A stretch of 64,000 nucleotides of DNA. It comes from Anaerolineales bacterium. GTDB taxonomy: Bacteria > Chloroflexota > Anaerolineae > Anaerolineales > Villigracilaceae. The stretch is from positions 186,001 through 250,000 of the forward strand of contig JAUXUL010000001.1 of assembly GCA_030680795.1 (NCBI GenBank), read 5' to 3'. Below the pieces are notes generated by a model. The model made no database searches. It saw only the letters and a program-made list of their open reading frames with translations, and was not told the DNA's origin. Position 1 is the stretch's first letter; each line of letters begins with the position of its first letter. A program made the position numbers and the translations under genes. Of this stretch, positions 16,112 through 26,609 are shown piece by piece.

Positions 16112-16906
16112 ATGAACAAAACTTTGAGCACGACCCTAATCGTTATCGCAGTACTTGCGCTGGCAAGCGGCGTCTTTTTCGCTGGAAGCATGTATGCGCG
16201 CGCGAATTCTTATGGTCCCGCAATGATGTTTGGCTACGGCAATAACAACGCCTACGGCCCAGGCATGATGGACGGAAATGGTGGCTTCAGCAGGGGGCCT
16301 AGCATGATGGGCGGGTACGGCTGGAATAAAGGAACCAACTCCAACGTCGCGCCCCTGACCATTGACCAAGCCAGGACGGCGGCTGAGAAATACATCCAGT
16401 CCCTCAATATTCAGGGATTGGAGACGGGCGAAATCATGATCTTCGACAACAATGCCTATGTCATCGTCGAGGAATCCGAAACAGGGCTGGGCGCATTTGA
16501 ACTGCTGGTGGATCCCGCCTCGCAGGTTGCCTATCCTGAATACGGCCCCAATATGATGTGGAATCTCAAGTATGGCGGTCTCGGTCATGGCTCGATGATG
16601 GGCGGATATGGCGGCCTGATGGGACGGGGTATGATGAATGGTTGGAATAACCAAACCGCACCTTCCAAAAATATCTCCACCGAAATGACCGTCACCCCCG
16701 AACAGGCTGTGACATATGCCCAGCAGTACCTCGATACCAATTACGCGGGCACAACCGCCGTAACCGATCCCATGCAGTTCTATGGCTATTACACCCTCGA
16801 CTTCGAGAAGGACGGCCAGATCATCGGCATGTTGAGCGTCAATGGCTACAACGGACAGATCTTCCTGCACACTTGGCACGGGAAGTTCATCGAAGAAGCC
16901 GAGTAA
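16112..16906 (+). CDS. Met/Gly-rich secreted protein with two PepSY-like domains
   Basis: 264 residues. A signal peptide or anchor (about 5-30) is followed by methionine/glycine/tyrosine-rich segments (GPAMMFGYGNNNAYGPGMM at about 35-53, GPSMMGGYGWN, GSMMGGYGGLMGRGMMNG at about 168-185), which resemble Cu(I)-binding Met motifs. Two similar alpha/beta domains, PLTIDQARTAAEKYIQSL (about 76-150) and VTPEQAVTYAQQYL (about 195-264), look PepSY-like. The ATG has GAGGAGATTACCC upstream. It precedes a two-component system whose kinase also has a Met-rich loop. A role in extracytoplasmic copper binding or sensing is inferred. Confidence 0.7.
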   Translation: MNKTLSTTLIVIAVLALASGVFFAGSMYARANSYGPAMMFGYGNNNAYGPGMMDGNGGFSRGPSMMGGYGWNKGTNSNVAPLTIDQARTAAEKYIQSLNIQGLETGEIMIFDNNAYVIVEESETGLGAFELLVDPASQVAYPEYGPNMMWNLKYGGLGHGSMMGGYGGLMGRGMMNGWNNQTAPSKNISTEMTVTPEQAVTYAQQYLDTNYAGTTAVTDPMQFYGYYTLDFEKDGQIIGMLSVNGYNGQIFLHTWHGKFIEEAE

Positions 16907-17034
16907 TTTACAGCACCCAGGTAGAATGAACGCGCCGACGATGCACAATTCGGCGCGTTTTGTTTCCTGCAAATACAGTTACAATATCATCAAATGCCAA
17001 TCGGAAATCGTCAATCATAAATTGAGAATTTCAT

Positions 17035-17718
17035 ATGATAAAAATCCTTGTTATAGATGATGAGCCCTCCATCGTGAATCTGATCACGGCTTATCTCAAG
17101 CCCGAAGGCTACGAAGTCTACACGGCCATGGATGGCCCATCAGGACTCAAGGCCGCGCGTGCGTTCAAGCCCGACCTTGTTATATTGGACATCATGCTCC
17201 CCGGTATGGATGGGATAGAGCTGCTCTCCCGCCTGCGCCGCGAATCAGAAGTGTACGTGATCCTGCTTACCGCGAAAACGGAAGAGACCGATAAGATCGT
17301 CGGCCTTTCTGTTGGGGCGGATGATTACGTGACGAAACCATTCAGCCCGCGTGAGTTGACGGCACGTGTCAAGGCCGCGTTGAGGCGTATCCAAACGGGA
17401 GCAGGCTCGGGGTCCGAAATGGGCGTGTTATCTTTTCGTCACCTGCATATGGATATTGGCGCACATACGATCACGGTTGATGAAAATCCGATTGAGTTAA
17501 CTGCCATCGAATTTGATCTATTAAAAGCACTGGCTGAAAATCGCGGGCGCGTTTTATCGCGCGAGCAATTACTCGAAAAAGTTTGGGGCGGCGAATACTT
17601 CGGCGAATTGCGCGTGGTGGATGTGCACCTGGGGCACGTCCGCCAGAAACTTGGCCGCGAGGATTTGATCGCCACCGTGCGCAGCGTGGGCTACCGCTTT
17701 GAAGATGAGCCGCTTTAG
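17035..17718 (+). CDS. OmpR-family response regulator
   Basis: 227 residues. Receiver domain (1-120) with acidic pocket VIDDEPS, phosphoacceptor Asp in LVILDIMLPGMDG (about 51) and the conserved lysine in YVTKPFSPREL (about 101). A winged-helix DNA-binding domain (about 130-225) follows, with LTAIEFDLLKALAENRGRVL and RVVDVHLGHVRQKLG. It is followed 15 bp later by its probable kinase. The target genes are not shown; the adjacent Met-rich secreted protein is the obvious candidate. Confidence 0.92.
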   Translation: MIKILVIDDEPSIVNLITAYLKPEGYEVYTAMDGPSGLKAARAFKPDLVILDIMLPGMDGIELLSRLRRESEVYVILLTAKTEETDKIVGLSVGADDYVTKPFSPRELTARVKAALRRIQTGAGSGSEMGVLSFRHLHMDIGAHTITVDENPIELTAIEFDLLKALAENRGRVLSREQLLEKVWGGEYFGELRVVDVHLGHVRQKLGREDLIATVRSVGYRFEDEPL

Positions 17719-17732
17719 GGTTGTGAGGAATT

Positions 17733-18881
17733 ATGACCGACTACTTTCGCCGTCATTTGGGCGCTAAACTTCTACTGTCTTATCTCGCCATCATCGTTGT
17801 GGGTGTGGCAGTGCTGATCATAGCCAGCCAGTTCATCCTGCCGACCTCTTTCAATCGCCACATGTTTGGCATGGGGATGATGATGGACAATGGGACAGGC
17901 ATGGGAATAGGCAACCAGGGCGTTGGCAACTCTGGCTTGATGCCACAGTTGTACGTTGATTTCCGCGCCAGTTTCAATGAGGCTCTGACGTATGCGGCGC
18001 TGGCGGCTATGATTGTGGCTGTCGCATTCAGTCTATTTCTCAGCCGCAGTGTGATCGCACCCATACTAGCCATGTCGCTTGCTACACAGCGCATCTCAGA
18101 AGGACATTACGATGAACGCGTGCGTGTGAATGGCAAGGATGAACTTGCGCAACTCGCATTGTATTTTAACCAAATGGCTGAAAAACTGAATCAGATTGAA
18201 TCCATGCGCCGTCGTCTCATCGGCGATGTCAGTCACGAACTGCGCACACCGCTGACTGCCATCAAAGGCTCGATGGAAGGTTTGATGGATGGCCTTCTGC
18301 CCGCCACCCATGAAACCTATCAACAAATTCACACCGAGGCAGATCGCCTCAATCGCCTCGTGGATGACTTGCAGGAACTCAGCCGCGTCGAAGCCCGCGC
18401 CTATCAATTGGATATTCGGCCTTTGGATGTTTCCACCCTCGCGCGGATTATGACCAAACGACTCAAACCTCACGCGGAATCCAAACGCATCTCTCTGGAC
18501 CTCGAACTGGCTCCTGACCTTCCGCATATCCTAGCTGACGAAGACCGCGTAGTGCAAGTGCTAACGAATCTGACAGGCAATGCATTGCAATATACTCCCG
18601 CAGGCGGCAGGATAACCATCTCTTCAAAACAAGTTAACAATGAAGTCCAGATCGCTGTCCGAGATACTGGCATTGGCATTCCACCCGAACACCTATCGCA
18701 TATCTTTGACCGCTTTTACCGCGTGGATAAATCGCGCTCACGTCAAAGTGGAGGCGGAAGCGGCATCGGCCTGACGATTTCGCGCGCCCTCATCGAAGCA
18801 CACGGCGGACGCATCTGGGTCGAGTCAGCAGGAGAAGGACAGGGAAGTACTTTCACTTTCACATTGCCCATACAAAAATAG
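17733..18881 (+). CDS. Membrane sensor histidine kinase with a Met-rich sensor loop
   Basis: 382 residues. Two membrane helices (about 10-33 and 87-110) enclose a short extracytoplasmic loop containing MFGMGMMMDNGTGMGIG (about 45-61), a run of methionines like Cu(I) sites. HAMP domain (about 110-162), H-box GDVSHELRTPLTAIKGS, N-box NLTGNALQYTPAGG, G1 DTGIGIPPEHL, F-box FDRFYRVD and G2 GGGSGIGLTISRAL follow in order. It forms an operon with the response regulator. Copper sensing is inferred from the methionines and the gene neighbourhood. Confidence 0.9.
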   Translation: MTDYFRRHLGAKLLLSYLAIIVVGVAVLIIASQFILPTSFNRHMFGMGMMMDNGTGMGIGNQGVGNSGLMPQLYVDFRASFNEALTYAALAAMIVAVAFSLFLSRSVIAPILAMSLATQRISEGHYDERVRVNGKDELAQLALYFNQMAEKLNQIESMRRRLIGDVSHELRTPLTAIKGSMEGLMDGLLPATHETYQQIHTEADRLNRLVDDLQELSRVEARAYQLDIRPLDVSTLARIMTKRLKPHAESKRISLDLELAPDLPHILADEDRVVQVLTNLTGNALQYTPAGGRITISSKQVNNEVQIAVRDTGIGIPPEHLSHIFDRFYRVDKSRSRQSGGGSGIGLTISRALIEAHGGRIWVESAGEGQGSTFTFTLPIQK

Positions 18882-18918
18882 CAATAGCGGCGCGTCCATG
18901 AAACGCGCCGCTATTTTG
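18881..18918. terminator. Bidirectional terminator between the kinase and the Sec-protein operon
   Basis: AATAGCGGCGCGT (18883-18895) pairs perfectly with ACGCGCCGCTATT (18903-18915) around a 7-nt loop and is followed by TTTTGATTT. It serves two convergent transcripts. Confidence 0.85.
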
Positions 18919-18932
18919 ATTTATCATTTTAT

Positions 18933-19394
18933 TTACGGTATCCAGTTTGACAACACATTCACGATCAAATCGGGATTAGCAGGATCGTTAGTTTTGAGAT
19001 GAACCCCGAAGTTATGCGGACCGTCCATGCCTTCATGCATCATGAAGGCACTGGATTCGACGATCGTGCTTTCACCGGGCTTGAGTACCATCGAACCGAT
19101 GGTTAATTGAGGCGGTCAGCACCCCTCCAGGACTTCGATGTACGGTTCTTCCTTGAAACGCAGTGTGCCGTCGCCTGTGTTGGTGATTTTGATGGCAAAG
19201 GTTTTATTGACACCGAAATTCACATCGCCGTAATCAATCTTTTGCTGATCCACAGCGATGGATGGGGTTCCATTGCTATCTCCGCCTTGATTGGCAAAGA
19301 AAAATGCCGCAACGATCAACAGGATTCCGCCGAACACGACCAGCGGCCAGGGGAAGGTATTTCTTTGTTTTTGTCCCTTATGTTTTTTGCTCAT
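18933..19394 (-). CDS. DUF1573-like membrane-anchored protein with an in-frame TGA, predicted selenoprotein
   Basis: The frame from ATG 19394 (AAGGAG upstream) meets a TGA at 19118-19116 (codon 93) and continues to TAA at 18933, giving 153 residues. A Lys-rich start and one membrane helix (about 14-32, PWPLVVFGGILLIVAAFFF) precede a DUF1573-like beta domain. Before the TGA: IDYGDVNFGVNKTFAIKITN and EVLEGC. After it: PPQLTIGSMVLKPGES, MMHEGMDGPHNFGVHLKTND and PDLIVNVLSNWIP. The family pattern (PGE, then tNDP) continues across the TGA, so the motif reads GC-U-PP. A perfect hairpin follows (19103-19087). The start overlaps the stop of the upstream CuA-cytochrome gene as ATGA. If the TGA were a true stop, the domain would be cut in half. 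Sec insertion is inference, but well supported. Confidence 0.8.
19087..19118 (-). promoter_or_regulatory. Predicted bacterial SECIS element
   Basis: On the minus strand the TGA is followed after 12 nt by ACCATC-GGTTC-GATGGT, a perfect 6-bp stem (7 bp if G-C closes the loop). The apical loop begins 18 nt after the TGA and starts with GG, both inside the accepted limits for SelB-binding SECIS elements (16-37 nt; G among the first two loop bases). Confidence 0.7.
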
Positions 19395-20401
19395 TGAGTT
19401 ACTCCTTGATAATTGAATTGAAATGAGTATAGGTATGCAATTAAATCCCAGATTTGTTCTTCGGTAAATATCGAGCCCCACATCGGCATACCCGTGCCCA
19501 TGCCGCCGCGCAAAATTTTACCCTGTAACAATGCGGGACTTGCGCCGAGCATACGAGTTGGGTCGGTGAAATCTACGGGAGTCTGCATTGTCATGTTATC
19601 TGCGCCTGTCATTGTTTGCGTGGACGATTCTCCCGCCGCGGCAAGGTCATCTGCAAAGACTCCATCCCCCGCGCCGTTCTCGCCGTGACAGGCGGCGCAG
19701 TTTTGGGCGTAAAGCTGCTGTCCATTTGCGAGGGATTCGGCTGTGGTGTTGGATTGCCAAAGGTAAGCAGCCACATCCCAGCGTTGTGAATCTGTCATTG
19801 ATGTATTGGACAACTCACCGAATACTTGATAAGGTGAATTTGCGCGATAGTAATCTGTTGATCGGTCAATTGGTAAATTGGCTGCCAACTTTCGTCCGCT
19901 GCTTGCCGATGGCTGACTGCTCGGGATAACAGGTGCCTCGTGCGGAGCGTCAATGTCGAGGCCGAGAGTCACATACATCGGAACCCGTTCGACTTCGCCC
20001 AGGGCAGGCTCCGCAGGTATCGGGGAGTCCGAAGCGCCCGTCACTTCAATTGTCCCGCGCATCCGCCAGTGATTGAGTCCGCACCAGCGCGTACAGAAGA
20101 ATGTGTAAATCCCAGGTCTATCAAAAGTCAGAGTGATGTCAGTGACTTTGCCAGGCAGAACATCTACACTCTGCATATCCATCTGGCCGACAGCAAAACC
20201 GTGAACAACATCATCTGATGTCAGTTTCAAATGAAGCGGCTCGCCAACATTGACTTTGATGATATCGGGATTCCATCCGCCATCTTCTGCGATTTTAGCA
20301 TGGATAAGCGGCGTGCGCGCCCAGATAAAGAGCGGCGTTCCGACCGTCGCCAAAACTGCCACCGTAATCAAAATGCGGGAGAGGAGTTCCGAGCGTTTCA
20401 T
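19391..20401 (-). CDS. CuA-type cupredoxin fused to a cytochrome c domain
   Basis: 336 residues starting at ATG 20401, which overlaps the previous stop as ATGA. One N-terminal membrane helix (about 8-27) anchors a periplasmic COX2/NosZ-like cupredoxin domain (about 35-135) with VVHGFAVGQMDM and FFCTRWCGLNHWRMRG, the Cys-x3-Cys-x3-His-x2-Met set of a CuA centre. A linker leads to a mono-haem cytochrome c domain (about 225-335) with CAACHGENGAGDG and a candidate Met ligand in GGMGTGMPMWG. This is the electron-carrier part of a terminal-oxidase- or N2O-reductase-like chain, but no catalytic subunit is nearby. A longer upstream open frame is only a shadow of the next gene. Confidence 0.85.
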   Translation of the reverse strand: MKRSELLSRILITVAVLATVGTPLFIWARTPLIHAKIAEDGGWNPDIIKVNVGEPLHLKLTSDDVVHGFAVGQMDMQSVDVLPGKVTDITLTFDRPGIYTFFCTRWCGLNHWRMRGTIEVTGASDSPIPAEPALGEVERVPMYVTLGLDIDAPHEAPVIPSSQPSASSGRKLAANLPIDRSTDYYRANSPYQVFGELSNTSMTDSQRWDVAAYLWQSNTTAESLANGQQLYAQNCAACHGENGAGDGVFADDLAAAGESSTQTMTGADNMTMQTPVDFTDPTRMLGASPALLQGKILRGGMGTGMPMWGSIFTEEQIWDLIAYLYSFQFNYQGVTQ

Positions 20402-21735
20402 AGCAATAACCAGAGCATGGCAAGTGTGGCGATGAAACAATAGATGATGACGGGAATTGAAGATACTTTTACTTCGCCTGCGGCTTTTTGCGCGGTTCGT
20501 GCGGACCAGATCAAACCGCCGACAAGCGCCAATGTTTGCGCAGGCGCGAGAATGGAGGTGAGCATGGGTTGCCACGCGGTGTTTGCAGTGCCAAATAAAT
20601 TCCAACCGAGGCCAAGCGGATCGGATAATGAGACAAAAATGTAGGTTGCATTGGTAAGCACAAAGGATAAGCTGAAGGCGACCCAGAACATCAGACCGAG
20701 TGGAAGGAGGGCGGTTGCGAGAGAAGCAAATACCCTCACCCCAACCCCTCTCCCAGCGGGAGAGGGGTTGGGGCTGAGGGAGAGTGAGAAAGAAAATAAT
20801 CCTGGCAAAATAATAAAGATCATCCCAAGAAAAATAATGACATACATAAACCACGCACTTGTTCCGACGTTATATGCGGCATCCTTGAGCGCTCCCCACG
20901 GCCCGAGCAGAACGCCCGCATAGATCATGGCGGAACCAAACATGATGAAGGCTTTGAAGGCTTCATCCATTCTTGTGGATGGCTTGGAAAGATCAGCAGA
21001 AAATGGACGAAGGTTGATCGCGATGTTGTCGTGCGGGCAGGTGCGGATACATTCCATGCACAAGCCGCAATAAGTGTTTTTAGTTAATCCGCCAGGGAAG
21101 ACGTCCCAGGGGCAACCATACCCATTTGCAGAGCCATTGTAGCAAGGCTTGCCATCGCAGGTTACACAAACCTGCTTTTCTTTGATCCGCAATTCAATCG
21201 GCGCTGTTTGGGAATACAAGCCGATAAAACCACCAACGGGACAGAGATAACGGCAGAAAGAACGACGTTCGAAAATTGTACTAAGTCCAATGGCGGCGAA
21301 GAGCATGGCGGCAAGAACGATAGCGGTTATGTTTGGTGTAGTGAGAAGAACACTACTGAAGAGGGCCAGCAGGAGAAACGAAATATTTTGCAGCCAAATA
21401 TTTCGCAAGGCTTTCGGCCAGCGTAGGTTGAGCCACTTTGGTTTTTTATCTGGGGGAGTCAATACTGCGCCGCGTTGCAGCCATTCTCCAGGAAGCGGGA
21501 TGGGACAAACCGCGCACCAACCGCGCCCGAAGAATGGGACGGCCACGAGAATCAGGATCGCCCACCACGCGATCCACACGAAGACAATGCTGAAATTATG
21601 ACTTCCAACAGGCGTGCCGATGAGTCCCGCAAGGATGGCAAAAACATATCCAACCAGCATCACTATAAATACAGCCAGTTGTGGATAGCGGCTTTTGAGG
21701 GCGTTCTTTATAAAAGGGTTGCGGGTAAGTTCCAT
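20398..21735 (-). CDS. NapH/NosR-like membrane polyferredoxin
   Basis: 445 residues with about 8-9 membrane helices. Family features: FGRGWCAVCPIPLPGEW and RRSFCRYLCPVGGFIGLYS near membrane boundaries (the CxxxCP pairs of NapH/NosR proteins), then a cytosolic ferredoxin region with VCVTCDGKPC and YCGLCMECIRTCPHDNIAIN, at least one complete [4Fe-4S] motif. Such proteins pass electrons from quinol across the membrane. Between two helices near residue 320 a repeat (20736-20790) is translated as LSPNPSPAGRGVGVRV. The gene overlaps the downstream CuA-cytochrome gene by ATGA and follows the CuA cupredoxin gene by 15 bp. Confidence 0.85.
   Translation of the reverse strand: MELTRNPFIKNALKSRYPQLAVFIVMLVGYVFAILAGLIGTPVGSHNFSIVFVWIAWWAILILVAVPFFGRGWCAVCPIPLPGEWLQRGAVLTPPDKKPKWLNLRWPKALRNIWLQNISFLLLALFSSVLLTTPNITAIVLAAMLFAAIGLSTIFERRSFCRYLCPVGGFIGLYSQTAPIELRIKEKQVCVTCDGKPCYNGSANGYGCPWDVFPGGLTKNTYCGLCMECIRTCPHDNIAINLRPFSADLSKPSTRMDEAFKAFIMFGSAMIYAGVLLGPWGALKDAAYNVGTSAWFMYVIIFLGMIFIILPGLFSFSLSLSPNPSPAGRGVGVRVFASLATALLPLGLMFWVAFSLSFVLTNATYIFVSLSDPLGLGWNLFGTANTAWQPMLTSILAPAQTLALVGGLIWSARTAQKAAGEVKVSSIPVIIYCFIATLAMLWLLL
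20736..20790 (-). repeat. CTCACCCCAACCCC repeat translated inside the polyferredoxin gene
   Basis: CTCACCCCAACCCCTCTCCC pairs with GGGAGAGGGGTTGGGG across AGC; same family as the intergenic copies near 4160, 5880 and 50330. It encodes the extra loop SLSPNPSPAGRGVGVR in frame. Confidence 0.75.
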
Positions 21736-21750: not shown

Positions 21751-22218
21751 TCAGTGAGCAGTAATCAGCGGTAGGAGACGAGGAAACATCAAGTACCCGA
21801 TGCTTCCGATTGTTGCGATGATGGAAAGTCCAATCGAACGGTAAAACCATTCATTCTGCCCCACACTTAACTTACCAATCATGAACGGGTGCATCGCTCC
21901 GCAGGTGACGTTACATCGAAAACGGAAAGAGCCTGGCTTGTCTGCGAGAAAGGTCAACGTTGCAGTTTGACCTGGGTCGGCTTCGACTGAAATATCGTAA
22001 CCATCCACATACAGTCCATGTACAACATCCGTGCTGACTAATTCGATGGTAATCGTATCGCCAGGGTTTACGCTCAACTCGGAAGGAGTATATGAAAATT
22101 GTCCCGCTTCAATCCGAAAGGTCCGCTCCTGAGGCGTAACGGGGCGGACTGGGAATGGCGCAAAGGCCATTACCAGTCCAGCTATTATAAAGAGGAGGAG
22201 AAAGAGACGGGAGCGCAT
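21751..22218 (-). CDS. CuA-type cupredoxin (COX2-like) membrane protein
   Basis: 155 residues: N-terminal membrane helix (about 4-20), periplasmic cupredoxin domain (about 30-122) with VVHGLYVDGYDIS and FRFRCNVTCGAMHPFMIGKL, and a second hydrophobic helix at the C-terminus (about 130-152). Ligands Cys-x3-Cys-x2-His-x2-Met and an upstream His agree with a dinuclear CuA site as in cytochrome oxidase subunit II. It lies between the PCYCGC lipoprotein and the polyferredoxin in a tight operon, 4 bp after the former. Confidence 0.82.
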   Translation of the reverse strand: MRSRLFLLLFIIAGLVMAFAPFPVRPVTPQERTFRIEAGQFSYTPSELSVNPGDTITIELVSTDVVHGLYVDGYDISVEADPGQTATLTFLADKPGSFRFRCNVTCGAMHPFMIGKLSVGQNEWFYRSIGLSIIATIGSIGYLMFPRLLPLITAH

Positions 22219-22222
22219 GGGA

Positions 22223-22660
22223 TTAAGGGATGTTCGATGGGCCGTACTTTGAATAGGTCGCGTCTATGTAAGTCCTGGCTTCCTGAGGACTTTTTCCTTC
22301 CCGCAGCATCCGCATGACATCCTGCGTAATATCCACGCAGATGGAACAACCAAGAGCATGATTGTCGAATTTGATATTGCCCTGAGTATCCACATCCGAA
22401 ACATAACAGTCGTAATTCGATGTATGCCCAATATCTCCACAACCGCAATAGCAGGGAATATTTTTTATTACATCGGGGTTGGCCGCGGCAAATTGATAAG
22501 CCGTTTGCACTGTCACAGGTGCGGACTGCACTTCCGCGGGCATTTGGTCCATGGACATCATTTGCAGATCAGTGGTTTGCTGAGCTGAGCACGCGGGCAG
22601 GCTGGCGAGCGGGATAACGCCGATTAGCACGACGAAAAGAAATTTACGGGAAGTTATCAT
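22223..22660 (-). CDS. PCYCGC-motif lipoprotein
   Basis: 145 residues from ATG 22660, which has GGAG 9 nt upstream; upstream in-frame codons lack a site. A lipoprotein signal ends at LASLPAC (Cys at about 24). The mature part has NIPCYCGCGDIGHTSNYDCY, the signature of the PCYCGC family, and later HALGCSICVDITQDV and SPQEARTYIDATYSKYG. The clustered Cys and His suggest metal binding (copper is plausible next to two CuA proteins), but the family's function is not established to my knowledge. First gene of the five-gene operon that ends with the DUF1573-like protein. Confidence 0.85.
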   Translation of the reverse strand: MITSRKFLFVVLIGVIPLASLPACSAQQTTDLQMMSMDQMPAEVQSAPVTVQTAYQFAAANPDVIKNIPCYCGCGDIGHTSNYDCYVSDVDTQGNIKFDNHALGCSICVDITQDVMRMLREGKSPQEARTYIDATYSKYGPSNIP

Positions 22661-22826
22661 TTGGGCCATCTCCATTTCAAGCTTCAATCATCATATCCAG
22701 ATGGCCATTTTCAAGCCAGTGACGAATGCCATGTTGCTTGATGAAAATTGACCTGATTTATCTATATATTTGCCAATCCAGAGTCAATGATAAAACTTGT
22801 GGTTGATGTCAGACAGCGTGAAATGG

Positions 22827-24401: not shown

Positions 24402-24746
24402 ATGACTGACCGTCAAATATATAAACTACATGCGAGCATCTGCCATACATTAGCCAATCCCAAACGGCTGGAGATCATTGACCGACTGCAAAACCGCGAA
24501 TTGTCAGTGACTGAACTGGCGGGAGCTTTGGAAATCAGCCAGGCTAACCTGTCGCAACATTTGGCAATTATGCGGCAGAGGGGCATTGTCACATCGCGAC
24601 GCGAGGGATTGAACGTTTTCTACAAGTTGAGCAATCCCAAGATCATCCAGGCTTGTGAATTGATGCGGCAAGTACTGTTGGAACATTTAGAGACATCGGT
24701 TGAGATGGCTCGAGGAAAAACGATGGAAAAGGAACCTGTTTCATGA
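24402..24746 (+). CDS. ArsR-family winged-helix transcriptional regulator
   Basis: 114 residues. Typical ArsR/SmtB helix-turn-helix: HASICHTLANPKRLEIIDRL, then LSVTELAGALEISQANLSQH and LAIMRQRGIVTSRREGLNVF. One cysteine lies in the N-terminal helix (SICHTL) and one in the C-terminal helix (QACELM). A CxxC sensor pair as in ArsR is absent, so the signal could be a thiol redox or sulfur species rather than a metal. It heads an operon with a DsrE-family protein (ATGA overlap), a ferredoxin and a sulfide:quinone-reductase-like flavoprotein. Confidence 0.9.
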   Translation: MTDRQIYKLHASICHTLANPKRLEIIDRLQNRELSVTELAGALEISQANLSQHLAIMRQRGIVTSRREGLNVFYKLSNPKIIQACELMRQVLLEHLETSVEMARGKTMEKEPVS

Positions 24747-25108
24747 CCGAAACCAAAAAGACAAACTGCCTACTCATTATCAACGATGGCCCTTATGGGA
24801 ATGAACGCCCCTATAACGCCTTGCGGCTCGCTATGAATCTCGCCAAACGACCCGAAACACATGTGCGCGTATTTTTGATGGGTGACGGCGTGCAGTGTGC
24901 CGCGCGCGGACAGGAAACACCACAGGGATACTACAACACCGAACGTATGTTGAGTTCTGTTCTGCGTGGCGGCGAAGTGGCAACCTGAGGCACATGCCAG
25001 AAGGCCCGAGGTCTCGGGCAGGACGCATTAATGGAAAACATCCAAAACGGGAGCATGGAATTGCTCACCGACTGGACGCTGGCAGCAGACAAGGTGCTGG
25101 TGTTTTAA
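24743..25108 (+). CDS. DsrE-family protein with an in-frame TGA, predicted selenoprotein
   Basis: The frame starts at ATG 24743, overlapping the arsR stop, reaches TGA at 24986-24988 (codon 82) and continues to TAA at 25106, giving 121 residues. Before the TGA: NCLLIINDGPYGNERPYNAL and VRVFLMGDGVQCA. After it: GTCQKARGLGQDALMENIQN and TDWTLAADKVLVF. In DsrE-like proteins the corresponding motif is CGTC near a RGL, so the TGA replaces the first cysteine (UGTC), the sulfur-carrier position. A perfect hairpin with a GGTC loop follows 21 nt later. DsrE-like selenoproteins have been described in environmental sequences (from memory). Likely a sulfurtransferase or persulfide carrier working with the downstream ferredoxin and flavoprotein. 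Confidence 0.85.
24986..25019 (+). promoter_or_regulatory. Predicted bacterial SECIS element
   Basis: GCCCGA (25004-25009), loop GGTC, TCGGGC (25014-25019): a perfect 6-bp stem whose loop begins 21 nt after the TGA. GGUC is the core of the loop in the E. coli fdhF SECIS (GGUCU). Confidence 0.75.
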
Positions 25109-25367: not shown

Positions 25368-26609
25368 ATGACTGGTAAAACTGTGCTTATCCTGGGCGGA
25401 GGCATCGGCGGGTTGGTCGCCGCCAACGAATTGCGGCTGCTATTACCTTCCAAACACCGCATCGTGTTGGTCGAGAAGAATCCTCAGCACGTTTTTGCGC
25501 CCTCCTTCCTGTGGCTGATGACTGGTGACCGCCAGCCGGGACAGATCACGCAGGATGTGCGCCAGCTCGTGCATCGCGGCGTCGAGTTGATCCTGGCTGA
25601 AGCGCAGGCGATTGACCTATCCAATCGCCGCGTGCAGACCAGCACGCAAACGATCAACTTTGATTATCTTATCGTTGCCCTCGGCGCGGAGCTCGCCCCC
25701 GGCGCGATCCCCGGTTTGGCGAAAGCCGCGCACACCTTTTACACATTCGATGGGGCGGCGAAATTGCGCGATACTTTGCGAAATTTCGCCGGTGGAAAGG
25801 TGGCGGTGGTTGTAAGCTCCCTGCCTTATAAATGTCCCGGCGCGCCGCATGAAGGCGCCATGCTGATTGCCAATACGCTTCGTCAGCGCGGCTTGAGCGA
25901 TACAACCGAGGTGCATCTGTTCACGCCGGAGCCGCAACCCATGCCAGTGGCGGGACCCGTCCTGGGTGATGCGGTGAAACAAATGCTGTCGGACCGAGGC
26001 GTTGCCTTTCATCCATTGCATAAATTGACGCAAGTGGATTCAAGCGCACATGAGCTTGCCTTCGATGGACAAGGATCGTTCCGCTACGACTTGCTGGTCG
26101 CCATCCCGCCTCACCGCGGGCCGCGCATCGCCCAGGAAGGTGGGATGACCAATGAGGCTGGCTGGATCCCGGTGGACCGATCTACTCTCCAGACGAAGCA
26201 CGCAAATGTGTACGCGATTGGCGACGCGACAGCCATCTCCATTCCCGGGCGCTGGAAGCCCGATGTGCCCATGATGTTGCCAAAAGCCGGCGTGTTTGCC
26301 CACGCCCAGGCTGAAGTGGTTGCGCGCCGCATCGCCGCTGAGATCGCGGGGGTGGGCGTGCAAGATAATTTCCCTGGCATCGGCTACTGTATGCTGGAAG
26401 CCGGTGAAAGTCTGGCAGGATTCGCGTATGGCAATTTCTTCGCCGAACCGTCGCCGCAGATCGAACTTCATAAGATGGGCAAATCCTGGCATCTTGGCAA
26501 AGTATTGTTCGAGCAGTGGTGGTTGTCTCCCCGCGGCTTGAAACGCGAGACACTGCGCCTGGCCCTGTCGCTTGGCGGCAGGATGCTCGGCATACCGATC
26601 AGCATTTAA
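25368..26609 (+). CDS. FAD-dependent sulfide:quinone-reductase-like oxidoreductase
   Basis: 413 residues. The FAD-binding GGGIGGLVAANELRLLL (about 9-25) and the second GD box VYAIGDATAI (about 281-290) place it in the two-dinucleotide-binding flavoprotein group; HVFAPSFLWLMTGDRQPGQI and PGAPHEGAMLIANTLRQRG are typical of SQR-like proteins. Cys-containing KCPGAP (about 160) and YCMLEAGESLAGF (about 344) may supply redox cysteines. It probably oxidises sulfide or polysulfide to quinone. The ATG has GGAGGTGAAATT upstream. Last gene of the ArsR-regulated unit. Confidence 0.87.
   Translation: MTGKTVLILGGGIGGLVAANELRLLLPSKHRIVLVEKNPQHVFAPSFLWLMTGDRQPGQITQDVRQLVHRGVELILAEAQAIDLSNRRVQTSTQTINFDYLIVALGAELAPGAIPGLAKAAHTFYTFDGAAKLRDTLRNFAGGKVAVVVSSLPYKCPGAPHEGAMLIANTLRQRGLSDTTEVHLFTPEPQPMPVAGPVLGDAVKQMLSDRGVAFHPLHKLTQVDSSAHELAFDGQGSFRYDLLVAIPPHRGPRIAQEGGMTNEAGWIPVDRSTLQTKHANVYAIGDATAISIPGRWKPDVPMMLPKAGVFAHAQAEVVARRIAAEIAGVGVQDNFPGIGYCMLEAGESLAGFAYGNFFAEPSPQIELHKMGKSWHLGKVLFEQWWLSPRGLKRETLRLALSLGGRMLGIPISI

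Follow-up and report, generated by a model that had tools for sequence, protein, structure and literature searches.

Genes and features of the locus

The window, i.e. the whole stretch of DNA that was analysed (64,000 nucleotides), contains on its minus strand an operon with the gene order PCYCGC protein, CuA cupredoxin, NapH-like Fe-S protein, CuA-cytochrome c protein and GCU selenoprotein. The PCYCGC-motif protein (CYCXC family; 22223–22687, minus strand) matches Pfam PF13798 with 104 bits and NF041379 with 70.4 bits, the cut-off of the latter being 90. A selenoprotein form of the CYCXC/PCYCGC family (PF13798, NF041379) is listed in PMC13188914, whereas the window copy contains Cys only and lies below the NF041379 cut-off. 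It is followed by a cupredoxin with a CuA motif (CNVTCGAMHPFM; 21751–22218, minus strand), which matches Pfam Cupredoxin_1 and COX2, and by a NapH-like membrane 4Fe-4S protein (20398–21735, minus strand), which matches Pfam Fer4_5 and scores below the cut-off of the NCBIfam napH_ model. The next gene (19391–20401, minus strand; Pfam COX2 and Cytochrom_C) encodes a CuA domain (CTRWCGLNHWRM) fused to a cytochrome c (CAACHG). Its longest open reading frame (19391–20854, minus strand) begins about 450 nt early, and translation probably starts with MKRSELL at 20401. Both CuA proteins of the window contain C-x3-C-x3-H-x2-M, which we take to be the CuA pattern.

The GCU gene (18933–19394, minus strand) extends from an ATG at 19394 to a TAA ending at 18933. 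It is predicted to encode 153 amino acids with selenocysteine (Sec) at position 93, based on the translation with TGA as U, the homologues, the AlphaFold2 model and the fold matches. The ATG and the stop codon of the preceding CuA-cytochrome c gene overlap in the sequence ATGA, and a Shine–Dalgarno-like AAGGAG is found at 19402–19407 (minus strand). The predicted Sec codon is the TGA of codon 93 (19116–19118, minus strand) in the motif EGC-U-PP; the context is EVLEGC-U-PPQLTIGSMVLKPGES, and 60 sense codons follow before the TAA. A first-pass annotation of this DNA had placed a selenoprotein at the end of a copper/redox operon, and this core claim is supported by the analysis below. Its details are also found on the minus strand: the 60 codons after the TGA encode KPGES, MMHEGMDGPHNF and LKTNDPANPDL, and a Cys directly precedes the TGA (GC-U-PP). 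The perfect hairpin that it had described is present as well (ACCATC-GGTTC-GATGGT; 19087–19103, minus strand); the distance from the TGA is 12 nt for the start of its stem and 18 nt for the start of its GGTTC loop. SECIS elements are hairpins that lie a short distance 3′ of the UGA and contain a G in the loop, and we assign this one as such based on synonymous entropy and covariation. An intrinsic terminator-like stem of 15 pairs (18883–18915, minus strand) begins 17 nt after the read-through TAA; the scanned region contains nine terminator-like sites vs 5.8 expected, among which this stem is the longest.

The region 16112–18881 (plus strand), which is convergent to the selenoprotein operon, encodes a Met-rich protein, a response regulator and a histidine kinase, the last with a Met-rich N-terminal stretch (MFGMGMMMDNGTGMGIG). 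Relatives of the three are found at 23, 31 and 25, respectively, of 140 loci (a redundant set). It is possible that they form a copper sensor.

The window contains a second gene with the same arrangement, as had also been noticed earlier. It is a DsrE-like selenoprotein gene (24743–25108, plus strand; Pfam DsrE, PF02635) with AT-U-GTC at codon 82, the TGA lying at 24986 and being followed by a hairpin with a GGTC loop. With the TGA read as Cys, the protein matches PF02635 with 61.3 bits, and the DsrE domain carries the UxxC motif; TGA is present in all four distinct homologues among the fetched loci. DsrE-like selenoproteins (UxxC) appear in the tables of PMC9312934 and PMC13188914, and the window gene (UGTC, GGTC-loop hairpin) is an ordinary member of this listed family, unrelated to the GCU protein. 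The gene lies in a cluster of ArsR, DsrE(Sec), a ferredoxin-like protein and an SQR-like flavoprotein (25368–26609, plus strand). The best NCBIfam match of the flavoprotein is the selenoprotein subtype of type III sulfide quinone reductase, with 230 bits vs a cut-off of 525, and its frame contains no internal TGA.

Chance occurrence of a TGA followed by a hairpin

A TGA of the window was considered eligible if its frame is open on both sides, with at least 40 codons before and at least 25 after it. A loose SECIS-like hairpin follows five of the 192 eligible TGAs. The base rate of such a hairpin is about 2% for any triplet (TGA 46/2533, TGC 58/2574, TGG 44/2423, TGT 33/1712). A TGA with a hairpin in a single sequence is therefore within chance; we rejected the hairpin alone as proof and judged the claim by comparison. 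Concerning the other three of the five TGAs with a hairpin (45466 on the plus strand, 15503 and 6150 on the minus strand), their frames appear to be non-coding, and they were set aside as candidates.

Distribution of the GCU protein and conservation of the in-frame TGA

Of the 122 distinct rows of homologues, 115 have TGA at residue 93 and four have Cys, and the residue is missing in three truncated rows. One of the 115 rows is the front piece (L214) of a frameshifted copy (L100), and two rows (L204 and L205) are counted as truncated through parsing only, since the phylum search gives one TGA for each. The homologues do not end at this TGA, which the first-pass annotation had named as an outcome that would refute it. 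Within the order Anaerolineales, the protein is encoded (E ≤ 1e-6) in 70 of 301 genomes, 68 of which have the TGA form. The fetched loci contain 76 distinct genes: 73 are intact with TGA, one is the frameshifted L100 (also TGA) and two are Cys forms (L071 of genome G190 and L091 of G290). The alignments and the counts of 73 do not include L100, which belongs, together with L214, to a second GCU copy of genome G021 (G021:C1:4125077-4125534), which is frameshifted after the Sec site; the other G021 copy is intact.

Of 118 confirmed relatives in named genomes, the best 80 loci were considered; in this set, which overlaps the order set, 78 have TGA and two Cys (L179 and L185). All but four of these 80 bear names of Chloroflexota groups, some of which we presume to belong there. 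Loci with the labels Acidobacteria, Acidimicrobiia and Pseudomonadota may come from misbinned genomes; almost all genomes sampled are MAGs. A sample of 400 genomes of the phylum gave 22 matches: 12 from the same order, one from the same class and nine from other classes. The nine matches from other classes contain one TGA each, and the match from the same class (G491) is a CGC-type protein without TGA. The family has no match in plasmids, and 20 pattern matches in viral contigs yielded no confirmed member. Identical GCU gene DNA is found in L030 and L031, which are from different families, and in L033, L034 and L035, which are from different genera; either the module was transferred recently or the genomes are misbinned.

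The first-pass annotation had suggested looking for Cys at codon 93 in homologues, and natural Cys forms are the four given above (L071, L091, L179 and L185). On a tree of 116 of the 122 rows (L160, L204, L205, L217 and two pieces of L214 were left out), they need four separate changes, the tree having a midpoint root only and the four Cys rows lying on long branches. This fits repeated replacement of Sec by Cys. The region after the TGA and hairpin is under purifying selection, with dN of 0.02–0.16 and dS of at least 0.58 in the six computable pairs out of nine (dS was not computable in three).

Conservation of the SECIS hairpin

Codons +5, +6, +7 and +8 after the TGA have a synonymous entropy of 0.00 bits in the 73 genes, vs 1.90, 1.39, 1.84 and 2.42 bits, respectively, expected from the same genes. 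Based on an alignment of 37 sequences (A4; 24 of the 73 order genes and 13 distant ones, other classes included), 97.7% of the stem cells are paired, vs 18–67% for control stems slid along the alignment. There are 44 stem cells with a double change and the covariation score is 0.480; none of 500 shuffles is as high for either value. Double changes are found in five of the seven stem pairs (9/500 shuffles as high), and the pair types are no more numerous than those of the shuffles (284/500). The 73 order sequences (A2; 73 of the 76 distinct genes, without L100 and the two Cys forms) are 92.9% paired and contain 32 double-change cells, neither value being reached by any of 500 shuffles; three pairs show double changes, as many as in 428 of the 500 shuffles. 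Distant members keep the hairpin in other letters, e.g. GTCGT-AGGTCCT-ACGAC. The predicted folds of the four Cys forms do not contain the hairpin. For three Sec genes (L042, L052 and L064), the minimum-energy fold favours another pairing.

Selenocysteine machinery and reading of the TGA

The source genome (3.45 Mb, 97% complete), of which the window is C35:186001-250000, contains selA (543.8 bits), selB (349.5 bits) and selD (361.6 bits), all above the cut-offs, and a tRNA-Sec at C10:33794-33886 (64.9 bits vs a cut-off of 47), which ARAGORN reports as tRNA-SeC(tca) with a UCA anticodon. The selA, selB, selC and selD genes, on which the earlier call had been made to depend, are thus all found. 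The SelD of this genome itself has an in-frame TGA (CAG-U). A strong selA match (E ≤ 1e-100) is present in 66 of the 68 genomes with the TGA form; the exceptions are G026, with a weak match, and G173, with none, which are drafts of 93 and 88% completeness. As for the two genomes with Cys forms, one contains selA and the other (G290) has no selA match. The association of selA with the TGA form, against the rest of the 301 genomes, has a Fisher P of 2e-5, the genomes not being independent.

Because the TGA and the hairpin are conserved, the site is otherwise occupied by Cys and the sel machinery is present, we conclude that 18933–19394 (minus strand) almost certainly encodes a selenoprotein in which the TGA is decoded as Sec. 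An in-frame TGA alone would also agree with UGA being read as another residue (Trp, Gly or Cys), through a changed code or plain read-through. This is very improbable: TGA serves as the stop codon of 17 of the 73 family genes, the genome has the Sec machinery, the Sec forms retain the hairpin whereas it is absent from the predicted folds of the Cys forms, and Cys is the sole replacement seen at the site. A changed genetic code was rejected on the window as well, where TGA is the last codon in 10 of the 41 open reading frames that have at least 200 codons, counting overlapping frames. That TGA count, and the chance level of TGA plus hairpin in a single sequence, would be in keeping with an ordinary stop followed by a decayed or meaningless frame, or with a sequencing error, but the presence of this TGA in 115 distinct homologue rows, drawn from many genomes, the conserved residues on its 3′ side, dN far below dS after it and the covarying hairpin leave this hardly any probability, and we regard it as already refuted by the synonymous entropy of the hairpin, the homologue rows, the tree and the covariation.

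Predicted fold and conserved residues

The AlphaFold2 model of the GCU protein has a pLDDT of 87.8 and consists of a helix (residues 16–34) followed by a beta sandwich. It was based on an alignment of 61 rows (A1; 61 of the 76 distinct sequences, L100 and 14 close relatives being left out). Residues 41–153 of the model match 2qsv (Z 13.1, rmsd 2.5 over 107 residues) and HYDIN 2e6j (Z 10.3, rmsd 2.5 over 102 residues), and Foldseek gives a match to OCRL1 with E 8e-6. The model thus has the ASH/PapD-like Ig fold of ASH, HYDIN, PapD and MSP domains. Such a match of a predicted fold shows no function for the GCU protein. The basic N-terminus and the single helix very probably anchor the Ig domain outside the cytoplasm.

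The family has Cys-Sec-Pro at the Sec site, and Gly precedes it in 118 of the 122 rows (Cys forms included) and Ser in one. A Met/His loop, MMHxGMxGxH, is found after the Sec, in which M119, M123 and H127 are each conserved in 118 of the 122 rows; H120 (109/122) and H132 (104/122) are less strict. A divergent member (L217) keeps Cys-Sec, as SCU, and the Met/His cluster is absent from it. In the general Ig topology, the C-D loop and the E-F loop are at the same end of the domain. Presumably, Cys92-Sec93 lies in the C-D loop and the Met/His residues in the E-F loop of the GCU protein, so by this topology the pair would be close to the Met/His loop.

Relation to DUF1573 and to published selenoproteins

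The first-pass annotation had labelled the protein DUF1573-like and had stated that no selenoprotein is described in that family. Concerning the label, the window protein matches Pfam DUF1573 (PF07610) with 17.6 bits, below the cut-off of 26.1, and is therefore filed as DUF1573-related and not as DUF1573. With the TGA read through, 10 DUF1573 matches of 28.8–39.1 bits are found in nine other genomes of the 121 searched, among them those of G027 (39.1 bits) and G106 (38.8 bits). The label thus holds for relatives of the window protein, which pass the Pfam cut-off, and not for the window protein itself. Comparing the GCU family by hhalign with six DUF1573 proteins of the CGC type gives a probability of 98.6% (E 8.6e-16). 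Since relatives pass the cut-off and the profile comparison matches, the GCU family is, judged by its sequences, a distinct subfamily related to DUF1573.

The statement that the family has no described selenoprotein was too strong, as a DUF1573 (PF07610) selenoprotein with the motif UGC is listed in the tables of two reviews (PMC9312934 and PMC13188914); PMC13188914 gives it the accession MDJ0815992.1 and credits this form to its Olavius algarvensis symbiont reference. The UGC form is the sole DUF1573 entry of Table 1 of PMC13188914, which has no GCUPP form. By the rule of that paper, another Sec position or motif makes a distinct subfamily, and GCU would therefore be a new subfamily, not the first in the superfamily. 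The main text of the deep-Sep paper (PMC12013277) does not mention DUF1573, Chloroflexi or Anaerolin-. The GCU form is unreported in the open-licence literature as far as titles and the starts of abstracts among the matches listed are concerned, and no model of NCBIfam release 20 recognises the GCU protein above its cut-off.

The GCU and UGC proteins belong to the same superfamily by hhalign and have the Sec in or beside the same loop. They differ in that the window protein has GCUPP and neither the UGC motif of the known selenoprotein nor the CGC(T) motif of the canonical DUF1573 members compared, and the GCU family also has the Met/His cluster and CuA neighbours. Sec93 aligns with the Gly of CGC (MAFFT) or with the Thr after CGC (hhalign) and never with the first Cys, which is the place expected for Sec from the published UGC motif, the known UGC form being compared by its motif. 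A divergent DUF1573-like protein (L218; G431:C226) contains GGCT-U followed by a hairpin with a GGTTC loop and is possibly another Sec position in the DUF1573 superfamily. Most characterised selenoproteins are thioredoxin-like in fold (PMC13188914), whereas the predicted fold of the GCU protein is not.

Gene neighbourhood across genomes

A CuA-motif or PCYCGC gene is found within 4.5 kb of the GCU gene at 83 of 104 distinct loci, and at 57 of the 67 distinct loci with at least 4 kb on both sides. Of the ten exceptions among these 67, four (L066, L076, L082 and L174) adjoin CcmF, CcmH and TlpA-type genes, and three of these (L066, L076 and L174) are close relatives on the tree. One (L070) adjoins CcdA-like genes, and CuA genes and cytochrome c maturation genes are both absent from the other five. 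A neighbour at some isolated loci (L076:7514-8509) has no Pfam family match. Looking at the 301 genomes, the GCU gene is accompanied by the NapH-like gene (E ≤ 1e-40) in 58 and occurs without it in 12, and 15 contain NapH only and 216 neither; the Fisher P of about 1e-35 is indicative only, the genomes not being independent. In G261 and G269, the two genes are on different contigs.

Proposed function

Sco1 and PCuAC are small anchored extracytoplasmic proteins which have Cys or Met/His copper ligands and act near CuA subunits. The window protein has no Pfam match to them at E ≤ 0.01, PCuAC being absent among the three Pfam families listed at this threshold, and its predicted fold is ASH/PapD-like Ig instead. 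By analogy, it may nevertheless be like them in function. Based on the neighbours and the conserved residues, we propose the following. UGA93 is almost certainly decoded as Sec by the organism's own SelA, SelB, SelD and tRNA-Sec, directed by the hairpin, as the comparison of homologues shows. The helix after the basic N-terminus would place the Ig domain outside the cytoplasm, beside the CuA and cytochrome c partners. There, Cys92-Sec93 would form one site with Met119, Met123 and His127, and with the less strict His120 and His132, capable of redox and/or Cu(I)-handling chemistry. Such a site could keep the cysteines of CuA centres, and perhaps of c-type heme sites, reduced and/or deliver Cu(I) when the adjacent CuA and CuA-cytochrome c proteins are assembled or repaired. 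Sco and PCuAC proteins play a comparable role at CuA sites elsewhere.

Taken as a whole, Sec decoding, an anchored Ig domain and a role at CuA or heme sites are our best explanation of the locus, with a probability of roughly 0.55. That the GCU protein is an extracytoplasmic Cys-Sec factor for the assembly or maintenance of CuA (perhaps also heme c) sites is put forward tentatively, at somewhat less than even odds. Its most specific form is a Sec-dependent copper-site assembly factor with a non-thioredoxin Ig fold, in which Cys-Sec and the Met/His residues load Cu(I) or keep CuA and heme c reduced in an electron-transfer module of Chloroflexota; we consider this possible, at odds well below even. 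PMC13188914 lists a selenoprotein form, with a CU motif, of the CopZ family of copper chaperones.

The adjacent Cys-Sec pair could also belong to a plain thiol-disulfide (selenol) reductase, an extracytoplasmic relay which passes electrons, e.g. from a CcdA/DsbD-like protein to apocytochromes, with no copper involved, and the CcmF, CcmH, TlpA-type and DsbD_TM genes of some loci agree with it. We regard such a relay as less likely: it has no need for the highly conserved Met119, Met123 and His127, and CuA-motif or PCYCGC genes adjoin 57 of the 67 well-flanked loci. Metal or metalloid resistance, in which the pair would sequester Cu(I), Hg(II) or As(III) outside the cytoplasm, is improbable. Relatives of the Cu-ATPase gene of the window are found at 37 of 140 loci (a redundant set), and the CU-motif SaoL, SaoC, HgcA, MbdU and CopZ-family forms are related to metals or organometals by name (PMC13188914), but the commonest partners are CuA, NapH-like and PCYCGC genes, and some loci are cytochrome c maturation clusters.

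The family adds a selenoprotein subfamily, with the TGA form present in 68 of the 301 genomes of the order and in nine genomes of other classes among the 400 sampled; an annotation that stops at the TGA would drop the C-terminal 40% of the GCU protein. Given the non-thioredoxin fold and the usual partners, which are CuA and cytochrome c proteins, the roles of DUF1573-type domains and of the CuA/NapH-like/PCYCGC module become testable, and this module is a candidate meeting place of selenium and copper handling. If the proposed Sec-dependent copper-site factor is real, it would be a direct link of selenium to the biogenesis of respiratory copper centres, and selenium may help to build or service the copper and heme centres that carry electrons.
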